Below, in pieces: positions 3,973 through 45,400 of a stretch of 64,000 bases of DNA. The stretch is from assembly GCF_949628265.1 (NCBI RefSeq), contig NC_088787.1:27890501-27954500 (forward strand). The letters run 5' to 3'. A model generated the notes under the pieces. It was not told where the DNA came from, made no database searches, and worked only from the letters and a program-made list of their open reading frames with translations. The DNA is from Cloeon dipterum (Eukaryota; Arthropoda; Insecta; Ephemeroptera; Baetidae). How positions within the stretch are numbered: position 1 is the stretch's first letter; the number at the start of each line of letters is the position of its first letter. The position numbers and the translations under genes were made by a program.

Positions 3973-6741
3973 TTAAACTTCAAACTCTTCATTATAGCAC
4001 TCGGCGAATTGCATTAACTGCTCCAAAGATTCGTTGTAGTCATCGCGTTCAAGTCCAGCTTCAGCCAGTTGGGGCAAGTTGCGCCAGTGCGTGTGGGCCG
4101 CCTGGCCTTGCAGACTTTCAAGCATGGCACCCATGCTGCGACTTGAGTGCAGCCCAGCCAGCATAGGTACTGTGCGCACACCAGATGTATTCGGCTGGTC
4201 GTCAGGTAGCAAAGAGCCACTCGGGCTGACTCTTGGTGAGAAAATGTTGGGGAAAGGCGCACCGACTTGGCAGGGCAGAGCTGCCGCAAACACATGACTC
4301 TTGGTCTCAGGCGAGGTGCACTGCAGGAAGTAGCGCAGCATCTCATCCACTCGGGTAGCAGTGAAGGCGGGGTTGCTACTGTTATTTGGTGCATTGGGGC
4401 CCTTCAGCTTGGTTACTGGCACTCCTCTTATGCTGACCGACTGGACCCACACGCGATCATTCTCTTGATCACAACAGGCTGACATTCCCTGAAAGAGTAA
4501 AAGATTTTAGATGTGCAGTTCCAGGCAAAAAGAAAAACGATGATCGATTGGACGTTATTTAAGGCGTTTAAAATTTTTAAGTGATACTTTTATTTGCTCA
4601 AAGTGCTTGTTAGGGGATGGTGAAATACCAGGTTGAATTTACTCTTGGAACATACTGATGTTCACTCCTGAGGTCAGATACGACCATCAGAACAGGTAAG
4701 AAATCAAACCCTGGCGTCAGAGGGACCCTCATATAAACATATCATTCATTGTTCATGTGTATCCACTTGAACAACCCCTAACGGACTATTGTATTGCTTC
4801 GATTTGCAAATGGCCAGGTCAAGAGTTTACAGAAAGTGTTCAATTGAACTCTTTTGAAGTCAACAGGTTGCTCAGGAAACACCATGATGTGCCCAAAATA
4901 TCGTCATAAATTTTACGCATAATCAGATCTTGGTACTACGTACCTGCAGCAAAGGCCCCTCCCACTCCTCCAGGGTGCTTAGCAAGTTTCCTTCCAGGGG
5001 GAACGGGAGGTTTAGACTGGCGGCCACCGCCTTCCTGCCGCTCAACACAAGGTTGTTCTCGAGGTCAGCCATGCCCTGGCCATTGCGCAGACGATAAGGC
5101 AGTGTGCAGCCATCCAGGGTGGCTGCGATCAGGCTGCTCGTGTGGTAAGGCAGGTGGGCGCGGTACTCCACGTTGGCCAGCAACCGTGGCACTGCGTCCT
5201 GCTGCCAGAAGCCACGGCTCGTGCTCATCGGCGCCATCATGCTGCTGTGCGTGGCTAGTGTCTGCAGACACAAGGCCACGTTGGCGATCCGCAGTGTTTC
5301 TTTGCACGCCAGTCGCTCTGCATAGCTTCCATGGCCCACCGGAATGCAGAAAATACTCTTGTTGCTGTATTCGTCAGCCAGGAACTGCGTAGCGCTACAT
5401 GCTAACCCCCCAAACGCGTTTATGGCGTCAGCAATCACCTGCGAGCAAATGTTAAATAATACCAGCTGAATATTTGAAACAATAAAAAAGGCGCAGTAGT
5501 CAAATTGCACCTCACATTAAATCTATTTTATTTTAGTATATTTTACAAAAATATAAAAATGGTTGGAATGTCAAAGAATAAAAAATATCAAATTAAAGGT
5601 TTAAATTTAATGGTTAAAATTCTGGAGAACGATATTTTACCTGGAAGCCTTGTAGATTGTCACACTCCTCAGCGTATCTACGTATACTGTCCACAAAATT
5701 GTCTTCAAAAAAATCTGTCTTCCAGAGAGCGGTACCTTGGGGGAAAGCGTCAAATGCTGAGGTTTCGCTACCCCTTTCATATTCCTTGATGATGTTAATT
5801 GATCGAGGATGGTAACGAGTGCGATGGAAATCGGACCACACGTCCACGTATTCGTCCAGCTTGTATTGTTTGTCCACAGGTAGTGGTTGTCCTACACAAA
5901 TTTTGAGTAAGGAATGACTGGTGCAGCAAATTAAAATCAGTGCTTGTACCCGTTTTTTCTTCATTTGCTAGATCTGCTAAGAATTCATTGTTCTTGAACT
6001 TCTCTTTTCGCTGCACATCGACTTGGTTGACCCAAACAGGTTCAGGCTGCTCCTCGTGGTCTGCTTCATATAAGCCACCGTGCTCGGGCAATGAACCTAA
6101 ACTACCCTTCAGGTCCACCAAAAGAAGACGTGGGGTGAAGGTGGTTTGGCCCAGACGAGTTTCCCCTTCTCGAAATAAGATGTCATGGTTGATCTCTGAT
6201 GGGGATGTCGAAGAGTAATCAAACCCTGATTCCTGGAATATTTAGACGCAGGGTTATCATTTCTCCATTTCGTCCTGGTGTCGGTAAAATTGCGCATCGC
6301 TCATCAACCACTCAAATTTTAATTGTTGAAATTATTGTTTCCCTTTCAAGGAAAATTGAGTTTGGTTGCTGTAGAGCTATGCGAAATTTTACCGGCACCA
6401 AGACAATTTATCTACAAAGCTCGCATAATACATATTAATAAGTATTATGTAGAATTTCTTCATAAATAATACAAAATAAATTTCCTGGGTTAAACAAAAT
6501 ATCTCGCCAGTTCTTATGAAATCCTATAATAAATGGCGAAAACTGAAAGTCGCGGTGAAAAGTGTAATTTTTCGAATTTTTCCAGAATAATTTACTTTAA
6601 CAACGGCTGTATGTAGAGGAAAAAGAGGCGAAGTGCCAAAGTAGTCATATCAATTCTTACCTGAATATTCCACCAGTGAGTGCCAACAAAGTTGGAAAAA
6701 TGACCAAACTGCAGAGAGATCACCTCTTTGCTTGCTGCCAT
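3973..6741 (-). CDS. misato: Misato homologue (MSTO1), tubulin/FtsZ-like mitochondrial distribution factor
   Basis: Five exons: 6741-6661, 6232-5950, 5891-5641, 5438-4944 and 4488-3973, with phases 0,1,0,0 that all agree. The 541-residue product is close to human MSTO1 (570). The first exon encodes the diagnostic N-terminus ISLQFGHFSNFVGTHWWNIQ. Exon 2 has RLLLVDLKGSLGSL, exon 3 VWSDFHRTRYHPRS and EECDNLQGFQ, and exon 4 LADEYSNKSI and the PYHTSSLIAATLD segment. The protein ends with a short acidic tail. Misato is a cytoplasmic protein of the tubulin/FtsZ fold that affects mitochondrial network distribution and fusion and, in Drosophila, spindle assembly and tubulin-chaperonin function. The 428-bp first intron contains a dispersed repeat. 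The 5' flank (6742-6838) exists in a second copy 1 kb upstream. No exon is broken and the gene appears functional. Confidence 0.93.
6483..6600 (-). repeat. Dispersed repeat D, copy in misato intron 1
   Basis: Read on the minus strand this segment contains TTCGCCATTTATTATAGG...CATAAGAACTGGCGAGAT...AACCC. A diverged copy lies at about 19840-19930 on the plus strand (TTTGCCACCGC...CTCATAACAACTGGCGAGAT...AACCCGG). The class is unknown, and the match was found by eye. Confidence 0.45.
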
Positions 6742-7600: not shown

Positions 7601-7784
7601 GTCAGCGGCGATTGAACGTTATAACCTTCTGAGTCTTCTGACATAGGGTTCAATTTTAATCCTTGAATTGATTATTTTTAATGAAACGTAAAATTTTAGT
7701 GTTACAAAAATCGCTCAGCAAAAAATTCATGAATTAAAATTGAACCCATCGTCGGAGGTTTTACGATTAATCGCCGCTACCTAA
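7601..7784. mobile_element. MITE-like inverted repeat, diverged
   Basis: The left arm at about 7601-7662 (GCGGCGATTGAACG...AACCTTC...AGGGTTCAATTTTAAT) is complementary to the right arm at about 7731-7784. On the minus strand the right arm reads GCGGCGATTAATCG...AACCTCC...TGGGTTCAATTTTAATTC. The centre is an AT-rich loop of about 70 bp. Arms match imperfectly, pointing to an old insertion; no target duplication was identified. Confidence 0.5.
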
Positions 7785-12310: not shown

Positions 12311-13662
12311 ATGTTTGGTCTTAAGGTAAGAGGCATTTGCAAACTTTGATTTATATAACGTTTAATAATATATCATATGTTTAAGGTTCTTCTGTTTTCA
12401 TTTCTTGTAAATAAATCGTTCCAACAAGATACACTTGAATGTGTCAAGGAAACAACAAAGTGCGTTATTACCGATAACAGGAGTAGATATTTCCGATGCC
12501 CATCCACTGGACTATACGATAACAGTACTCTCAGTACCAATACGTATGACTGTCCAACGGAAAATTCAGAAAAATTGTTTTGTTTTAACTCTGTAACAAC
12601 TGGCAAAAAAGCAGATAGTGACATTGTTGGAAACACTGGACCTTGCCTTCAACTTACGTGCCTTTCGTCAGGAATATTTGCAGCTGGATCGATAAATGTG
12701 GGAGGTAAATTTATTAATAAAATTAAACAGAATAATTGTTTTTATTTTAAAATTTGTACTTTTTAAATATTTATATTTTTTTACCTCTGCTCAGGACATC
12801 CCGTGGGCTATGTGCTCACCGGGTCCCAGGTCCCAATAACACCGCTGAGCGGATAACATTGGGCCCGAGTTGGCCGCAGAGGAGCTCGGGCCCAATGTGA
12901 CCATATTTTTGTCTCCCTGCACCGAGGTCTTTTATTGTAACGTCAAATAGATTTTTCCATTAAGCCGCTGGAAAGGTCTGTGCGCCTCCCAGCACGTTCG
13001 AGTCACTAAACTAACCACCTTCTTGCCATCTCTGATATTGGGCAGCCAGCATAGTAGATCTCCGAACAGTTTAAATATCTCCCATTGCCTTGACTGGCAA
13101 ACTGCTGATTTTAAATAATTAAAATGGAGTAAATTTTTTAACTCTTATACCCTATTTTCGTAAAGCAAAAGTATCCTAAAAGTTTCAACTTTCTTCACTA
13201 GGGAACGTGGGATATTCTCAATTTAATATTATATTGATTCATGGTAGGCTACTAAAACATATAATCTGATTTATTACAGCATGCGGAACATACTATGCGT
13301 GTAGAGCAACTGGAGAGCTTCCTGTGTTAATTGATTGTAGTGCTGGGCAGCACTTTAACAGTGCCACCCTGAGGTGCGAACCAGCATCATCTGCAGGATG
13401 CGATCCTGCGTTCTCCACAACACAGCCACCAGTTGAAAGCCCCCAAAGCACAACGCCTGCGGCACCTATCTGCGGTGGTCCTGGCAAATTTGCTGATCCC
13501 ACTAACTGCCGCCAATATTACTCATGTGGACCGTTTGCCCGGGAACCGAAGCTTAAGAAATGTTTGGGCAATCTACGCTTTGATGAGGCCATAGGTCGAT
13601 GCAAGCGAAATGCTGACTGTGGAAGTAGACCAGATGGAGATCTAGTAACTCAAGATTACTGA
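12311..13662 (+). CDS. Peritrophin-type chitin-binding protein P2
   Basis: Exons 12311-12325, 12386-12704 and 13280-13662 have phases 0 and 1, the same as its four relatives. The 238-residue product starts MFGLK|VLLFSFLVNKSFQQ (signal peptide across intron 1). A cysteine module follows (CVKETTKCVITDNRSRYFRC), then ChtBD2 domain 1 (GPCLQLTC...ACGTYYAC...CSAGQHFN...AGCDP). After a very short Pro/Thr linker comes ChtBD2 domain 2 (CGGPGKFADPTNCRQYYSC...NLRFDE...CKRNADCGSRP), with a 9-residue tail after the CGSRP motif. It lacks the mucin block of P1, P3 and P4 and is therefore the shortest member. Intron 2 is 575 bp because a family C repeat is inserted in it. AATAAA is at 13683. Predicted secreted chitin-binding protein of peritrophic matrix or cuticle. 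Confidence 0.88.
12790..13020 (+). repeat. Dispersed repeat family C, copy 1 (inside P2 intron 2)
   Basis: It shares GGTCCCAATAACACCGC.GA.CGGATA with copy 3, and the module CACCGAGG.CT...TAACGTC...CGCTGGAAAGG with the other copies. This copy has an internal rearrangement: GGGCCCGAG and its complement CTCGGGCCC form a small inverted repeat at about 12860-12896. Class unknown; it is short, non-coding and of SINE or MITE size. Confidence 0.65.
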
Positions 13663-16204: not shown

Positions 16205-18415
16205 TCATTGCGGCCTTGAGCCGCAGTCGGCATTCCTTGAGCACCGACTCTTAACTTCATCAAAGCGAAGCCGAAATGGACACCTTATTCGTTTGCCCTG
16301 CGTTTTAAAGGATCCACACTTGTAGTAGTGCCTGCAGCTTCGAGGATCAGCTAGACGGCCATGTCCTTCGCAGGTTGGGGCCCCAGTGAAAGTAGGTGGT
16401 CTGGTGGTAACACCAGCAGGAGTTGTTGTACTAGTGATTTGAACAGTTGTGGCTGATGAAGTTGACAGTGCAGGATTGCAACCAGCAAGCGCTGGGTCCT
16501 CACAATTAGTAGAATTTTGATTAAAATGCTTTCCTGATGGACAAGCGACCACGGTCGGGAGGCCCCCGCTTGCAGAGCAACTGTAAAAAAACCCGCAGCC
16601 TAAAAATGATTTATATACGTATATTAAAAATTCATTAAATCAAAATCATGATTAAATAGTGTATCCAGAAAATTAGGATATCTATTATTCTGTGGCAGCC
16701 CGGTTAAGAAAAATTAACAATAAGCAATTATTAAGACGAGGTATCCTAAATTAAAAAATAATAACAAATAGTTTGTTTTTATTTTTATTGGTTCACCTCT
16801 TTCGAGATGGGCGACTCCTCTGATAGCGAAAAATTCGCAAGAACTCTGCGTCGCAATAGCATATATGGGCGCACGGGCCTCATTGGAGGAAGCCTAGTCG
16901 CGAGAAAACCAGCGCAGGTTACTGCGCCTCTGCACCGGGGTCTATTAATGTAACGCTAGACATTCGTCCCGTAAAATTCATTCACGCATGCTGGAAAGGT
17001 GCAAACCAACAGTGCTCCCAAATCCAAATGGATCCGTAATTTCAATTCAAGATAATCAAACATACGCGCAATTCAGCCCGCACTCGATCCCAAACATCGC
17101 TCATGTGGGAGTCGATGAACCGTGATAAAAATGCGTCTTTTCTTATACTATGCATCGTTTTTTATTTTGGGCTCGTGGTTTGAAGTATCAGTTAAATTAA
17201 GATCAAAATCGGGACCCGTAGTGCGGGTCTGAAAAGAAATAGCTTCTGGAATATTCTCGCACGAAATCTCAATCCTAGTCGGAGAGGACATGTTGTTTCG
17301 ACTGCTTTCGTGCGTGGTTTAAGGTGCAGTGAGGGGGCAGCGGTTATCGCACCTTTACACTGCCACCTCTGGCGATAATAAGGTTAATTGCAAACTATAG
17401 TTGCTAGGATAGAAGTGGTGGAAAGGCGCCACATTCGGAATAAAATTATTTTTTGTAACATCTTAAATCCAGTTTAATAATGGCAATAGGATAAATTTTG
17501 TTGTATAATACTCGCTTTAATGAGGATAAAGAAATATAGTTCAGTTGCAAGCATGTGTTTTCACAATATGTCATAAACAACAAATAAAAAATCTTACCTG
17601 GAAGATTTGTTGAAGAACCTACAGGGAAAACCCCATTTCCGGTGCAAGTTAGAAAAAGGCAAGGTCCCCCTGGTACTGAATCAATCGTTGTTTTTGGTGC
17701 AGGCGGGGTTGTCATAACCGGTTGGGTTGGTTGGTTCGGTGTGGTTGTGGTTGTGGTTGTGGTCGATTGGGTTGGTTGGTCCAGTGTGGTCGATTCGCTT
17801 GGTTCGTCGGATGTGATCGATTCTGTTGGTTGGCCTGGTGTGATAGATTGCGTTGTTTGACCCGGTGTGGTTGTGGTCAATCGGGTTGGTTGGGTCGTTC
17901 CTGCTGTAGATACTGTATATATTCCAGACATCCCCGAAGTTACCCCATCAATACAGTACGTCGAAATAGGGCAATCGAATAATAAAGATTTATCGTCGTA
18001 GACTCCATTTACGCATCTATAGTAGCTCTTTCGAGCTGACGAGTTGCATATAAAACTGTTAGTTGCACATTGAATTGTCAGCGCTTGAGAGTGGCCAACA
18101 ATAGAATAAACGACGAAAAGCTAGAACAAAACAGATAAATTGACGATTAAATCAATAAAATTACTGTGATTAAAAGATCAATTTGTTTTTTCCTAATCAA
18201 ATGCATGTATTACTGTGCAAATGTCTGGACACCGAATCGTAATCGTTGGTCAAAATTGGAATTTCTAGATTCCAGATATTAACTATGTAATTTCTAACCT
18301 TAACATGAACTGAACAGTAAAGATAATAATAGTGTGAGAAAAATAGTTCTTGATAAATGAAGTATATTAAAAAACATTTAAGTTTCGTACTCACTACTAA
18401 CAATAAGAGGCCCAT
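16205..18415 (-). CDS. Peritrophin-type chitin-binding protein P3
   Basis: Exons 18415-18395, 18120-17598 and 16599-16205, phases 0 and 1. The product has 312 residues. The signal peptide MGLLLLV|LFVVYSIVGHSQA is split by intron 1. The N-terminal cysteine module (CATNSFICNSSARKSYYRC...CPISTYC) is followed by a Thr/Pro/Gln-rich linker of TTPGQTTQS-like repeats. ChtBD2 domain 1 follows (GPCLFLTC...ACGFFYSC...CPSGKHFN...AGCNP). After a shorter Thr linker comes ChtBD2 domain 2 (CEGHGRLADPRSCRHYYKC...CPFRLRFDE...CSRNADCGSRP). The protein ends one residue after CGSRP. Intron 2 is about 1 kb and carries a family C repeat. A TATA box is at 18493-18484. It is predicted to be secreted and to bind chitin. 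Domain 2 is most like that of P4, its same-strand neighbour. Confidence 0.89.
16800..17130 (+). repeat. Dispersed repeat family C, copy 2 (inside P3 intron 2)
   Basis: The longest copy. It contains GGGCGCACGGGCCTCATTGG, CTGCACCGGGGTCT, TAACGCTAGACATTCGTCCC, TTCACGCATGCTGGAAAGG and an extension ending CCCAAACATCGCTC. Those blocks recur, in order, in copies 3, 4 and 5. Confidence 0.75.
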
Positions 18416-21459: not shown

Positions 21460-23300
21460 ATAATAATTAATACATTTCTAATATACAGAATTACAGAGTC
21501 AAAAGGCAATTGAGCGATCATTTGAATAGTTGTTGTTGACGAATAAAAATGTGGCTCATGCTTCGCAATACACAAGAATTTGTATATGTTGCAAAAAAAT
21601 ACGTGAAGTCGTTTTATCGCAGAAATAGTGTTAAGACAAAGGGCACCCATTTACCCCTATTTTGGAACCATGACTCATAGTAAAATGAAATACAACTTCA
21701 AATTCCTAATATCCACCCGAACTTCTGTAATTTATGTTATAATCTATTAAAACAAGTGTACGTTTTTAAATCGCACACCAAATTTGACACATTATCGAAG
21801 GCTACCAAATAGATGTTTGATTTTTTTCTACCATGTCTTGCTAAACTAACAATAAGGAACACACTATCATTACCTTTTGGAACTGCTTCGCGCACTAAAG
21901 GAACTATTATAAATGCCGTTTCTCTTTATATAGTTAAAGTCTATTTAACATACCTGTTATATACCCGTTTACTTTGGTAGTAGCGTACTGCGTACTATGT
22001 ATTATTTGTCCAGATAGAGGCCATAAATGAGCCAAACGTTGCCTTATCAGGTTTTTTATTAATTGGGTCGGAAGAAGATTAAGTCTGGTCGGTCCGTGCC
22101 TTTTGAAAGCAGAGCGAATATAGGCGTTCCCTTAAATGTATCCCCCCCCCCGTTTTTTCTTTAATCATATATTTATTTTGTACATCAAAATTAACAAAAG
22201 CAGTTGTTTTGAACTGTTTGATAGCATATTAAAAATTTATTAAAAACTTGAAATAATGCGAGAGATCTAAGCGATGATTGATTTCGTCTAAATTTTCCCC
22301 TTTGTATTATCTGCCACGATTCCATTTAAATTTGTGACAATTTTGTGAAAGCAGTCTGACCCACTTTCTTTCTAGTTTTCACCTTTCCAGCATTTGCATG
22401 AATATAGCTTCAACTAGAAAATTGTCTTGCATATTTTACGAACAACTACAGCTCGAGGAAACAGCAGTCTTTTTCTAGCAATAAGGACCAAGATACCTTA
22501 ACTGCGTCGTGTATTGTCGTCGTTATTTATTTTTTCATTTGTGATGTTTTTATACATGGCTTGTTCCTGACTGTGCTAAACCAAAGCTAAACCAAGCAGG
22601 ACTCCCTGAATCATCTTCCTTTCCAGATGATATAATGGGCATATTTGCTTAATTTTCTTATTGCTTAAAAATCTTCTCCATGTATTAATTGCCAAGCACT
22701 ATATGAATCACCTATATCTGACCACCTCAACTCCTGAAGTGGTCCCATCTTTCCTCTTTTCAAGCAGTGGATTACCGTGTGCGGTAAAACGTGTTTAAAT
22801 TGGAAACTCCCCTGAAAAATGGCAATTTTTTTGTCATCTAAAGAGAAAATCTGCTCTTCGAGTTTTTAGGAAATTGTTTGTTTAATCCCAACCTAAAATA
22901 TAATTTTTCGGATAAAAATTATCTAATTAAAAAAATTATAATTTTGGAAGACAATATCCTGAAAAAACCTACCTTAGCGGGTTTTTGTTAGAATTATTTC
23001 CTTAATAGTAAATAACGAGATTCAATCTCACTATAAAAATTAGAACCTTTTCCTAGAGCAAAAAAATCGTGGTGTCAAAGAAATATTAATTTGCTTGATG
23101 TGTTTCCTAAATAAAAATACTAACGGATTTAATAGAAAATCAGTCAGCAAAGTAGCGTTTTACGTCCGGATTTGGCAAATTCCGATCTTGTTTAATTTTT
23201 TTTTGTCTATGAAATCAAAATTATATAAAAATTTCATTTTTTTAATTTGGATTTAGGGGCTTAATAGAATAGTAATACCTCAATTAAAAAAGATACTCGT
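21460..23300. other. AT-rich spacer
   Basis: About 1.8 kb without a recognisable gene. A poly-C run lies at 22142-22150. No coding exon with peritrophin similarity was found here. Confidence 0.5.
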
Positions 23301-23309
23301 ACTATACTA

Positions 23310-23700
23310 AGGGATGCTACTCAATGCAACGCAGACCATTCGAGAAATCATCAAAAACCAAACGTTAAGCGAATTTTCCAAAAACATTTTAAGCGAGTCC
23401 CAAAATGTCCCAGAAAAAACACAAGACATTCATTGTCGCCAAACACCCATGACTAGGACAGCCGTTTCGGGTATTAACCCTCGTCAGCTAGCCTTTGGTG
23501 CAGCGAGTTCCTCACCTCAACGGAGAGCGAACATCTCTGTCGCGTCAATCTCCACTACTAACTCAACCAGGTTTTAAGCTGGCAGCTTGCATCGGACAAA
23601 AACGCGTGGCGTTCAATTCTAACAATTTCTCGAATAGTATAAATCGTTGCAGGAGTTCTAACACGGAATTTAAAGAAAAATACGCGACCTAATGCAAGGG
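23310..23700 (-). mobile_element. Penelope-like element terminal-repeat remnant
   Basis: This assignment comes from the hammerhead core at 23435-23505 and the surrounding wording (GCTGACGAGGGTTAATACCC, GAAACGGCTGTCCTAGTCAT, GGGTGTTTGGCG). Such wording is characteristic of the pseudo-LTRs of Penelope-like retroelements. No reverse transcriptase or GIY-YIG endonuclease coding was found beside it. The boundaries are approximate, and the plus-strand frame at 23314-23577 is an accidental opening. Confidence 0.55.
23435..23505 (-). ncRNA. Type I hammerhead ribozyme (Penelope-type)
   Basis: On the minus strand the catalytic core is complete. CUGACGA (23487-23481) fits CUGANGA. Stem II is GGGU/ACCC with loop UAAU (23480-23469). 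GAAA (23468-23465) follows. Stem III is minimal: the C after GAAA can pair with the G of a GUC triplet at 23453-23451, and GG..CC lies between. Cleavage is predicted after position 23451. For stem I, CCAAA (23498-23494) pairs with UUUGG (23443-23439), leaving an internal loop near the core. The very short stem III is the form found in Penelope-like elements and retrozymes. Sequence fit is good; activity is untested. Confidence 0.7.
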
Positions 23701-24340
23701 AGCATCAATCTCTCCAATGCAAAGGATTTTTGCTCAATACAAAACGAAAAAAATGCAAAATGATGCTTGTCTCTAAAGCGTTCACGTTTAAAAAGTTTTA
23801 AAGTTCCCCGTACAACACAGTTGGCGTTAAATAAATTAACTGTTTACTTATCTATCACAAAATTAAATTGAAACAGATTAGAATGTTTATTAGACACCAA
23901 CGGTGTACACCCATATTACATAATTGATGAATTCGGGAAACACTTTTTTTAGGAAGCAGCTTATTGAAATAATGTAATACCACACTATTTGTAATATTTT
24001 TTAGCAAATGATTTACATATCCAAACATTCTTGATCACAGACAGAAATATCTAGATATAAACGTTTGTCTTTACACAATAAGGAAATGATAACCACGGAA
24101 GAAGTGTCGTGTGAAAACATGAAAACATACCGATTTTTACAATTGGAAAACCCCACCAGCCTTATTGGTTAATATTGAAGGGGTTCTATAAAAATAAGGA
24201 TGTTTTTTTTTTTGTTTTTAATAAATCAAGTTTTCCAGAAAAAATACACTAAGGTGTTTCTGGAAGAAAAAATTTAATTTTTTAGGTCTTTTTTACAATA
24301 ATCAGTCTCCACTAACTCAAAGACCAGTCTTCATTTCATC

Positions 24341-24434
24341 TGTCGTGACACTTCTCGGTCTGAACTGCCCCAAAGCGCGCCTGCAGATGACCAAAGACGT
24401 TGGGGCAGTTCAGGCCGAGTATAGTGTCACGACA
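24341..24434. mobile_element. Palindromic MITE family A, copy 3, with 5-bp target duplication
   Basis: The left end is TGTCGTGACACT..TCGG.CTGAACTGCCCCAA and the right end is its complement (TTGGGGCAGTTCAG.CCGA...AGTGTCACGACA). The element is flanked by TCATC on both sides (24336-24340 and 24435-24439), a perfect 5-bp target-site duplication. At 94 bp it is essentially two terminal inverted repeats, and its near-perfect arms make it the youngest copy here. Confidence 0.85.
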
Positions 24435-30084: not shown

Positions 30085-31581
30085 ATGGATCTTGAGCACA
30101 GTTGGAAACACTTGCTGGTAAGTTTTTAATATTGGTTCAAAGTAAGCATTTTCAAAATCAATCTTTGCTTCCATATTCCATTAGTGAGATTGAAAATATT
30201 ATTAAAAAAATTGAACTGCATTTGCAGCTTGCATTGTGTTTGCTGCCGCTGTGTTTCGGCGTTCCTTCAAATGAAGATTGCAGAAGTTATACGAGCCCAC
30301 CCTCTGCGTGCGAAAGTTCAAATCCAAGTGTCTACTATAGGTGCGCTTACGTAGACAGCGGCAAAATGGAGATTGTTGGCGGTGCTAGTGCCGTCGAAAC
30401 TGCTTGCACCCCCGCAGCCAATGTTTGCTATAGAGAGGGCAAGGTGACAGACCCAAAGCCCACTACGCCTTGTGGACCTGCACCTCCAGCTTGCACAACT
30501 GAGGGATCATTTGCACTCCGTGAAAGTATGTAGTTCCTTTTGGAGATTTTTTCTTCAAATTAAAAAATGATCCCTAATTTTCGTAAAAATATTTTGAAGC
30601 AAACAGACAGTTATGATATGACTTAATTTTTTTGTTTTCCAATATCTATATTTTAATCTAAATGAAGGCGCATTAATATTAAACAAAGGAGAGAGAAATT
30701 ATGTTGTTGGAAGTCACCAAGTGAAGGCTGATGGTCTTGAGAATGTCATGATGTTTTAAATTACAGCTACCTAATTTTTTAACTAAATGTTTATTATATG
30801 AAATTTCACTGAAAACCTTGAAAACAACGTAATGGTATCTCGACTGAAATTATTTAATATTTATTTAAAAGTTGAATGTCAGGTTGCATACACTAACAGA
30901 CGGGGAAATTTATTTGCTTGGTAATTCAAATATTACAAATCTGTTTTGCCTTGATGATTGTGTAATTATTAGCAAAATAGGAAAACATTGATTTTTATCT
31001 AATTGGGCGCAAAAATACAACCCATTGGCTCTTTACGAGAGGTAAAGTTAAATAGCGAGTGCTGATGTAGCGTAAATATTTGAACCATAAGAATCGCATT
31101 CAATTAAAATTGCTTTCTTATCACACAATCAATAACAGGAACATCTGGTTTGCAAGGTGAACTTAACAATTTTTTCTCTTCAGGGGGCTGCGCTTCCTAT
31201 TATGTGTGCGTGGGTTCCGGGAGCAGTTACAAGACCGTAATTACCACCTGCGCACAAGGTCTTGAGTTCAGCGAAGCGACCAAGAAGTGCGAGGCTGTGG
31301 CCGTGGCAGGCTGTTCTGTTCCCACTACCCCACCTCCTCCGCCTCCGCCTCCAACTCCACCGAAACCCTCCACTTCCGCTCCTGTCAACCCCGTTACACC
31401 AGCTCGAGATTGTCCGATGACAGGCGAGAGATTTGCTGACGCCAGCTGCCGCCACTTCCTGAGGTGCGACATAAACAACAAAGTGGTCAGATATCAGTGC
31501 CCTTGGCGCCTCAAGTATGATGAAACGAAAAAACTGTGTCTTAAGAAGGTGAACTGTGGAACTAGAAGTCTTATTATGTAA
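30085..31581 (+). CDS. Peritrophin-type chitin-binding protein P5
   Basis: Exons 30085-30117, 30228-30525 and 31184-31581, phases 0 and 1; 242 residues. The start MDLEHSWKHLL joins LALCLLPLCFGVPS to give a signal peptide. The N-terminal cysteine module is CRSYTSPPSACESSNPSVYYRC. ChtBD2 domain 1 runs GPAPPACTTEGSFALRE..GCASYYVC...CAQGLEFS...AGCSVP. It is followed by a proline-rich linker (TTPPPPPPPPTPPKPS), not the Thr-rich linker of its relatives. Domain 2 is CPMTGERFADASCRHFLRC...CPWRLKYDE...CLKKVNCGTRS. The terminal CGSRP of the other four is CGTRS here. It is the most diverged member and has the highest GC content. AATAAA lies at 31613. Predicted secreted chitin-binding protein. Confidence 0.88.
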
Positions 31582-42400: not shown

Positions 42401-45400
42401 TAAAAATATTATGCACAGCTTCTAACTACAAAAATAAACAGTTTAATTATTTACAGGCACAGCATAATCTAATAGCCCAAGATCTATACACGAGCTATGG
42501 TTTTAAGCTCAGAAGCTAAAGTGCAAATTATTGGTTCTCAGGATTATGGAATTCAACCCCAAACTCAACCTCCTTGCACCGATTTGGTCTGCCAGCGTCA
42601 TGCCCGAATCGACTCAGCCTTAGAAATTTTAGAATCACGCAACATTTCCCGCCAAGCGATTTTCTTCATCGAGACCTCAGGCAGGGGCACTCTGTTACCC
42701 CGGCAGTTGTGCGCCCTAGAGTCGGCGGCCAGGCACAACCCCGACGCCGATATTTACGGGCTGCTGCTGGACCTACCAGCCGACCCTCGTCTCACCAGGG
42801 ATGAGCAGGTGCTCACCCTGCTGCGATACTACGGCAACGTGCGCCTGCTCTGGGCCAAATCCGCCACTTATTTCGTCGGAACGCCACTTCAAGAGTGGAA
42901 CATTGCTAACCGCATCAATACCAGCGTGAACCGCGCTGAGGATGCCAGTGACATTATGAGAGTTGTCACCGTACTAAAGTAATTATAATTGGCTCTTGTT
43001 CCTATAATTTAATTTTTTCATCCCTTTCGTAGGTACGGTGGGATATATCTCGATTTGGACTTTGTGATCCAGCAGTCTCTGACCTCAATGCCGCCCAATT
43101 GGCTGACTTTTGAGTTGGGCAGCAACCCCACAAGTAGCGCATTCGGCTTCCAAAAGGGCCACCCAATGGTGAATATTATGGCCAACGAACAAGCCGCAAC
43201 CTTCGACGGATCAATCTTTGGATACAGTGGGCCCAGCATGGTGGCTCGTGTGATGAGTCGGACCTGCGGAATGAGTCTTTCCGAGTTGTTCAATACAGGC
43301 AAAAACTGCACTGACATCGTAGTACTCAAGCCAGATAAATTCTATCCCATATCCTACCCTGCGTGGCGCCTATTATTCGACGAATCTGTTGCTGGCCAGA
43401 CGATGGAAACTGTGAGAAGCAGTTTAGGCGTGCACATGTTCAACTACCTAAGTCACGGCGCCAATGTTACGCTTGGTTCTAATCAGGCGTATAGTCAGCT
43501 TGCGCAGAAACACTGCCCCCGGGCCTACTGGAGCTGCTTTAAGAACTTTTGATTTAATTTCATTTGAAAATTTCAAGATCAAATAAATTAATCGTACGTT
43601 TGATACTGTATTTTTACTTAGATGAAACGAATGAGCGTATTGAACCTTCCCCGTTTCACCGTGTGAGAATAAGTTGTTTATTTCAATCAGTGGCAAATTG
43701 GCTATTTTTGTTTTGCGGTGGAATTACATAAACCTTTTTTCGGTAAATAAGCTGTCTCTTAATTAAAATTACAGATGCTTTGATCTATAAATCTGCTTTA
43801 CTTAAATACGTAACATTTTATTTATGAAAACAACACAGTGATAAAAAGAAACATTAAAAACAAAAAATATTTAATAAACTTAAACTGACAGTCGACTTAC
43901 TGCCTCCTCAACACTCACAATCATGCATGTTATTCGAATAATCATTTTGCTCAGCACCTATATGCTACAGATAATTAACTTAAGCAAGACATGTGTTGAA
44001 GGTGCACTTGTCGCAAGCAAGTCATGCGGATGAGAAAATATCATAAAACTATTGCATATTTAAAATAAAGGCAGGGATGATATGCCCATATTAACGCGAA
44101 ACATTTTGCGCCAACCCGAATTTCTTCACCGAGACCTCAGTAGGAAAGGGCACTTGTTACCCCATGCATAGTGCCTCGGGTGATGAATTTGAATTGCGAT
44201 TGCGGAATGAATTTGTCAAGAGCTTTTAAACTATGTTATAAACGCTTTGCTCAAGCCAGACAAGTTTTCCCCGTCAACAACCCTGCCATGTAACATCTTT
44301 TCAAGGAAGCCACCACTGCCCAGGTGATGGACACAGTGAATAACAATCTACGTGTTCAAATGTTGAACTATCTGAAGCACGACACCAATGTCACGCTCGG
44401 CTCTAATCAAGCATAATATAGACAGCTTGCGTAAAGATGCTATCCCAGAGCGTATATTTTACTGGAGATGCTTTGCAAGCTTCGTATTTCTAAAATTTAT
44501 TTAATTGTAGCTCGATTCGCAGTGTATCAGAGAGCCCTCCTCGTCCTTTTTTTCCGAATCAACAAATTAAACAAAACTATGGTCATTCTGTAAATTTTTA
44601 CTGCTTATTTTTTAACGCAGCATAATATTCCAATATATAAGTTATTATAAGGTTAAGGACTGTTATTCACTGCTCAAAATTTACGCATAGATTTTGTTTT
44701 TTAAACTCGAAACACCTTTCATTTGTTAAGCCGCACAAGTGTTTTTGTATTCAATATCATTTTGGTTTGCTTACCTGTTATTTGGAATATTAACTGTGTA
44801 TTTACAAAATTGTGCAACTTTGTATGCTTGGAATATAAAACAGTTATGGTTATAATGCAATTTTGTGGTTCAATTTACATTTCAGCTTTTTACATTTTGA
44901 GTGAAGTGATTCTTTGTGTCTATAACTAGTTAAAATTAAATGTATGGTAGAGAGATTTCATTTTGTAATTCGAAACACAATATTAAACGATTCTCCAAAC
45001 CCATTTAGATTAACACCGCCGGTTTACCTCTGTGTCCATAAAATAAAAGGCACTCTTGTTAACAAAAATCGTGTATTTTTTAGGATTATCAAAGGGCAAA
45101 CGAGCTGGTAATTCACTGCTCTCGCCGAGTTTAAAAGACAGTTAACAGAGCCGGCCGACTGGCAGGCATGCAAATGAAATAAAAAGCAATCAGCGTCGCT
45201 CACGAAGACATTAAAAATTTAATTTGCCTTCGCTGCAATCACTCTCCGAAACGCATCACTCTCAGATTCCGCTCTTTCCCACGTTTCGGTTTTTTAAAAT
45301 GCGTCCGTCAGGAGCGATCGTATTTATTATATATGTATTAATGTGTGTGGCACGTAACTGTGAAGAATACATAATAAAAAGCTAAGTCCCCTTTTCCTGC

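Follow-up and report, generated by a model that had tools for sequence, protein, structure and literature searches.

A hammerhead-bearing, non-coding 610-bp element with Penelope-type insertion scars in the mayfly Cloeon dipterum

We have analyzed a dispersed repeat of Cloeon dipterum that combines a type I hammerhead motif with the insertion scars of Penelope-like elements. The repeat has a unit of 610 bp, and it is probably a retrozyme-like, non-coding retroelement that is mobilised in trans by the reverse transcriptase (RT) and GIY-YIG endonuclease of a Penelope element. One copy lies in the stretch of 64,000 nucleotides analysed here (the window), to which all positions refer unless a locus or the reference is named. 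Motif and element represent a new family of the retrozyme kind, and the insertion scars are new information. The scars bear on how animal retrozymes move, and they point to machinery of the Penelope type.

The motif lies on the minus strand and is, in sequence and predicted structure, a type I hammerhead motif. Its parts are listed in Table 1. A preliminary description of this DNA, made from the sequence alone, had reported CUGACGA, a GGGU-UAAU-ACCC hairpin and GAAA in exact succession, and this string is borne out. After GAAA the strand continues with C-GGCU-G and then UC, ending at 23457, and the whole is preceded by GGCUAG (23493-23488) and followed by CUAGUC (23456-23451), which pair with each other as stem I. 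The window copy has the CUGANGA and GAAA core, the GUC and stems I to III, with stem I open. Two details of the earlier observation, which as a whole is partly confirmed, had to be corrected. The cut had been placed at 23451/23450, after a second GTC (23453-23451) that is in fact the 3' strand of stem I; the GUC at 23459-23457, five bases past GAAA, fits the hammerhead and places the predicted cleavage at 23457/23456. The distal CCAAA/UUUGG stem proposed there (-10.6 kcal/mol) is less favourable than CACC/GGUG (-14.9 kcal/mol). The unconstrained minimum-energy fold of the RNA differs from the hammerhead (-21.8 vs -14.9 kcal/mol) and speaks against the ribozyme reading. The stem II loop region of the window copy is one U shorter than in the other aligned copies, and L051 is deleted there.

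Table 1. Coordinates of the hammerhead and of the element that carries it in the window
Feature	Position	Strand	Basis
Type I hammerhead, stems I-III, core and GUC	23451..23493	minus	Rfam RF00163, 25.7 bits; core pattern
Catalytic core CUGACGA	23481..23487	minus	sequence, Rfam alignment, copy alignment
Stem II hairpin GGGU-UAAU-ACCC	23469..23480	minus	sequence, stem check over copies
GAAA, last A paired with U 23458	23465..23468	minus	sequence, stem check over copies
Stem III, two base pairs and tetraloop GGCU	23458..23465	minus	Rfam alignment, stem check
Predicted cleavage bond 23457/23456, after GUC 23459-23457	23456..23457	minus	Rfam alignment
Ribozyme including distal stem I, CACC 23500-23497 / GGUG 23447-23444	23444..23500	minus	fold energies, stem check
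5'-truncated single-arm copy of the 610-bp-unit element	about 23279..23752	minus	copy alignments; edge words
Near (short) 3' end of the element, ...TTTTTAATTGAG	23279..23290	minus	presumed RT start, one of two

The Rfam model RF00163 (Hammerhead_1) aligned to the window copy over all 45 positions with an E value of 0.00034 (search space 351 bases by 4227 families), and the whole model also aligned in a 251-base stretch of a sister copy, L010, at 25.6 bits. Both scores are below the curated gathering score of 34, which counts against the earlier identification. A search of the whole 64-kb window at gathering thresholds returned no hammerhead, because 25.7 bits falls short of 34. None was found over six whole loci either, though the 251-base stretch of one of these (L010) gave a match; the discrepancy is due to search filters. 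A genome-wide Rfam search gave five weak matches (best E 1.06) among the best 73 of 28838 candidates scored, and it is uninformative because of this small fraction and because the window copy itself was missed. Rescaled to the 190-Mb genome and one family, the RF00163 E value corresponds to ~0.04 chance matches per genome. The pattern CTGANGA..CGAAAC..GTC is found at a single place in the 64 kb, in two rows as two GTCs fit; 0.03 are expected per window, and two or more matches occurred in 0 of 100 shuffles.

At least 48 matches to a 301-base query were found in the genome (best 40 of 55 candidates scored). All copy counts are minimum values, as only the best candidates were scored. The locus sample comprised 30 loci from the search (27 without three that repeat a neighbour) and 11 further stretches for the remaining places. 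Tandem copies elsewhere in the genome, which count in favour of the preliminary reading, are present: dimers with 610-bp spacing occur at two loci on different chromosomes, with the same unit length of 610 bp in both, and a unit plus a partial second one is found at L013. A non-coding repeat, a type I hammerhead and tandem copies, the features by which a retrozyme is recognised, were thus found together. The Rfam alignment and the dispersed and tandem copies also support the earlier view of a mobile element that carries a type I hammerhead whose stem III is minimal. Partial matches to the unit were considered as possible autonomous copies and turned out to be broken copies without RT; one of them, L074, resembles a head-to-head copy that has lost a 3' end and is left out of the counts.

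The window copy is one unit minus about 135 bp. Its 3' end lies where many other copies end, and the far tail end is missing. It has no target duplication, with no common word of at least 6 bp at its edges. Within it is a 14-bp inverted repeat (23335-23348 and 23625-23638). Elsewhere in the window, frames at 13270-13662, 16205-16639 and 31108-31581, on both strands, contain peritrophin-A chitin-binding domains (PF01607), and other frames resemble them by look; the frame at 43013-43552 has an alpha-1,4-glycosyltransferase region (PF04572, E 1.4e-33). An inverted repeat with 20-nt arms, 95% complementary and 26 nt apart (24354-24419), is perhaps a miniature element.

Conservation among copies was assessed against the dimer L010 (1401-2480), in whose numbering (reference, below) the ribozyme lies at about 240-297 and the predicted cut at 284/285. 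The ribozyme core is intact in 23 of the 28 copies that span it, the exceptions being L018, L024, L034, L051 and L052. Among 32 aligned stretches, the 43 ribozyme bases show 2.1% variation, compared with 6.1% in the rest of the alignment. With L010 as reference and both units of the two dimers counted, the ribozyme interval ranks fourth of 390 for low variation, and the three intervals ahead of it are the same one shifted by 1-3 bases. The most variable core position is N7 (24 C, 4 T, 1 A). The hammerhead stems are paired in 96.2% of 319 alignment cells (20 distinct rows); no pair has changed on both sides among the aligned copies, which are too alike for covariation. A chance motif is unlikely given the Rfam alignment, the preservation of the core across copies, the rarity of the pattern and the low variation.

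The ends of the copies carry the main evidence on how the element moves. As derived from BLAST, and accurate to a few bases, most 3' ends lie at reference 456-470 (short) or at 529-539 (tail, an extension of about 70 bp); the 5' ends are variable. In head-to-head copies (twins), exactly one of the two arms extends past reference 475 into the tail at 18 of 18 loci, an agreement with a probability near 5e-6 if the arms were independent; the tailed arm is the plus arm in 8 twins and the minus arm in 10. The 36 twin arm ends consist of 17 short ends, 14 full tails and 5 that lie elsewhere (437, 496, 511, 511 and 513). A nineteenth twin, L024, has both ends eroded and was set aside. Among 17 single-arm copies there are 12 short and 5 tail ends. 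A second set of 16 loci, found only through tail and linker sequence, contains 10 twins, all with one tailed arm; since selection was by the tail, the test bears on the other arm only. In L089, a second-set twin with a 14-bp target duplication, the plus arm ends at reference 50 rather than near 464 or 534, which perhaps marks a third, rare start site.

Edge words of at least 9 bp common to both sides were found at 18 of 34 loci, compared with 14 of 1122 pairs swapped between loci. In the second set, counted without a swapped control, target duplications are present at 9 of 16 loci, eight of them 12-13 bp long and one 14 bp. Overall the duplications measure 9-14 bp and are the sign of retrotransposition expected of a retrozyme; the family therefore consists of retrotransposed insertions and not of satellite DNA. 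The printed 3' ends show no poly-A or simple repeat, and the fold of the RT start region is nothing unusual.

The unit is tied to Penelope by its mode of insertion and not by its sequence. The earlier interpretation, which is partly supported as a whole, had described a Penelope-like remnant with no reverse transcriptase nearby. The second part is correct: no RT remnant was found in the window (tblastn best E 2.7), and around the first 30 unit loci tblastn detected no Penelope RT in 1.5 kb of flank (best E 1.5). The first part stands in so far as the insertion footprint is Penelope-style; the unit is not a recognisable Penelope piece. All 59 Penelope protein matches are, by coordinates, at least 45 kb from the 61 unit places. 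Compared with the Penelope sequences fetched, the unit gave only matches of 14-29 bases (best E 0.006, 19 bases, on the opposite strand), and no Penelope family with ends matching the unit was found among them. We rejected the unit as a pseudo-LTR of the resident Penelope family, there being no common sequence beyond these short matches. Having no coding part and only short matches to Penelope, the unit is therefore not itself a Penelope member. Judged by the features of such elements, it has no ORF with RT and GIY-YIG and no terminal sequence in common with the resident family, and its twins do show a pair of 3' ends, a tail being present on one inverted arm. In this respect the unit behaves like a Penelope template.

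A Penelope family with long uninterrupted frames resides in the same genome; the longest frame has 829 aa, with matches to GIY-YIG and RVT_1. Among the best 120 of 910 relatives of its protein, those with an organism name are animals. Its twins L044, L045 (of which L046 is a likely duplicate) and L049/L050 have, by eye, only one tailed side each, where for L049 the lack of a tail on the other arm is judged from the end of an alignment, and L044 and L045 are bordered by duplications of about 12 and 9 bases (also by eye). The footprint resembles that of Penelope elements in other animals. In a rotifer a 31-bp tail is optional on one inverted repeat and duplications are 8-10 bp (PMC3846280). In a lizard element the tail reaches from one measured RT start site to the other, cutting and extension affect both strands of the target, and a hammerhead lies upstream (PMC11167929).

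Fragments of the resident terminal repeat occur beside two unit copies: 52 bp (88%) directly after the copy at L013 (1871-1922), and 80 bp (96%) about 170 bp past the copy at L026 (1977-2056). They represent nested insertion or co-insertion. The resident family has a hammerhead-like motif of its own near the terminal repeat (L044, about 4060-4110, minus strand), which reads ACUC-AUGAUUA-stem II-GAAAC-UG-GUC-GAG with A and U in place of the canonical C3-G8 pair. This A3-U8 form is found in 3 of 9 fetched relatives (L064, L067 and L069); L066 has one more changed base, L070 has a different form, and the motif was not matched in the stretches fetched for L063, L065, L068 and L071. A second, unrelated hammerhead-like core, with a stem I that looks poor, adjoins a Penelope copy at L047 in inverted copies ~1.5 kb apart (7644-7679 minus and about 9216 plus). 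As a candidate for a second hammerhead-like family it was rejected, having three genome matches of which two are long, both at one place.

The 5' ends bear on the use of the ribozyme. Upstream of the cut site extend 33 of 39 plus arms, and most templates were therefore uncut there or re-ligated. Of 21 arms with 5' ends at reference 100-340, 12 end at 237-287 (4.4 expected) and 3 (L053, L056 and L059) at 283-287 (0.4 expected), in windows picked after the ends were seen and with 16 later loci not added to the count. Three copies thus start at the predicted cut or a few bases from it. Over the ribozyme proper (241-297) the excess is small, 9 of 21 vs 5.0 expected. L059 matches at the cut site with a mismatch. 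In L056 both arms stop near the cut, at reference 281 and 286; one of them passes it by 4 bases, and L056 is therefore only suggestive of a cleaved template. The L056 junction (290-366) is filled by two pieces of 28S rRNA that lie in opposite sense, likely the product of a template jump in which each cDNA would have switched to ribosomal RNA. A GC-rich stretch beside L053, considered as another ribosomal jump, is part of another dispersed repeat. Cleavage of the unit RNA, and the formation of circles, are predictions made from the motif.

Two alternatives leave the retroelement in place and change the meaning of its parts. The unit could be debris of pseudo-LTRs and correspond to the terminal repeat of an autonomous Penelope family whose coding copies were lost or missed; the hammerhead would then be a Penelope hammerhead and the footprint trivial. 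The footprint is the same in kind as that of the resident family, the hammerhead lies upstream of the RT starts as in the lizard element (PMC11167929), and copies that consist only of pseudo-LTRs occur in rotifers (PMC3846280). Against this, no coding sequence was found in the 1.5 kb around each of the first 30 loci or, by coordinates, at distances under 45 kb, and the dimers join unit to unit without a coding part between. In addition, the L010 tail has no ATG (by eye), at the place where Penelope tails lie within the open frame, and the minimal hammerheads that PMC7761336 describes for Penelope have a less complete stem III. We consider this explanation unlikely, and slightly more so the alternative that the retroelement is real and its hammerhead a look-alike, inactive or a coincidence copied along. 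The Rfam scores under threshold for both the window copy and L010 favour a look-alike, as do a chance expectation that is not negligible, the preference for another fold, stems without covariation and the many arms that read through the cut. It is opposed by a complete core with three stems in the least variable part of the element, by the position of greatest core variability, which at N7 is as expected of a hammerhead, by the gathering of 5' ends at the ribozyme edges, and by the occurrence of this very ribozyme in such elements (PMC7229834).

The remaining explanations concern the mode of movement itself. Twin priming by L1 produces head-to-head copies with target duplications, and 5' truncation is likewise seen in LINEs; the repeat could on these grounds be of LINE or SINE type and depend on a LINE for its movement, with its head-to-head copies arising by L1-like twin priming. 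Such an origin is very improbable: it is at odds with the twins, in which each side uses a different one of two fixed internal 3' ends (18 of 18 and 10 of 10), and with the printed 3' ends, which have neither poly-A nor simple repeats. Satellite DNA or a miniature DNA transposon would be suggested by the tandem dimers and the 14-bp inverted repeat. Both are contradicted by the dispersal of the copies, the target duplications, the variable 5' ends and insertion ends that lie outside the inverted repeat, and we regard this last explanation as barely conceivable.

Under the preferred reading, a non-coding retrozyme-like element copied by Penelope machinery, units would be transcribed and the hammerhead would cut part of the unit RNA, with re-ligation into circles possible. 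A Penelope-type protein would make staggered cuts ~12 bp apart and prime cDNA from one or both target ends; staggered cuts and target-end priming are suggested by the target duplications and twin copies, both observed directly. Synthesis would begin inside the RNA, downstream of the ribozyme, at one of two places ~70 nt apart. Where both target ends are used, each would take a different start, one near and one far, and the result in the genome is seen in the twins. Synthesis would then run back and stop at varied points, often in or beside the ribozyme, and the window copy may be one such 5'-truncated single-arm insertion. A more specific version, in which an animal retrozyme is copied by Penelope with an obligatory near and far start in each two-sided insertion and with some cDNAs made on hammerhead-cut RNA, we put forward tentatively, as it is slightly short of an even chance. 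The pairing of near and far starts in every twin counted constrains models of Penelope priming on two target strands. The link to Penelope can be checked in other genomes by a single count, that of tailed arms per twin copy.

Animal retrozymes are described as tandem repeats that lack coding capacity, measure 150-450 bp and carry type I hammerheads; for their movement Penelope elements have been called a strong candidate on the basis of common features and co-existence (PMC7229834). The element described here agrees with the metazoan non-LTR retrozymes in being non-coding, in its type I hammerhead whose stem III has two pairs and a tetraloop, and in having tandem copies, target duplications and Penelope elements in the same genome (PMC7229834, PMC7761336). 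The unit of 610 bp is longer than their 150-450 bp, a range given as a description and not as a stated limit (PMC7229834). Among the copies seen here there are at most two units in tandem, and most copies are truncated and single or head-to-head. The scars are of Penelope type, whereas a review finds in retrozyme repeats no conserved motif that reveals an autonomous partner (PMC7761336). In the literature examined, including a paper on a Schistosoma satellite (PMC8490949), we saw no retrozyme described as having insertion scars of the Penelope type; coverage of older work is incomplete, and we therefore make no claim of priority. With respect to Rfam RF00163, the full model aligns to the window copy and to L010 at scores below the curated value.

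L1 twin priming also yields head-to-head copies with target duplications; here there are two internal 3' ends, one per side, and no poly-A was seen on the unit copies. Relative to Penelope-like elements, the unit is without RT or GIY-YIG and without a terminal sequence common to the resident family, its tail is 70 bp where theirs is 30-40 bp, and its stem III is fuller than that of the minimal Penelope hammerheads (PMC7761336). With these elements it has in common the tandem and head-to-head arrangement, a tail that is optional on one inverted end, short target duplications and a hammerhead upstream of the RT starts (PMC3846280, PMC11167929).
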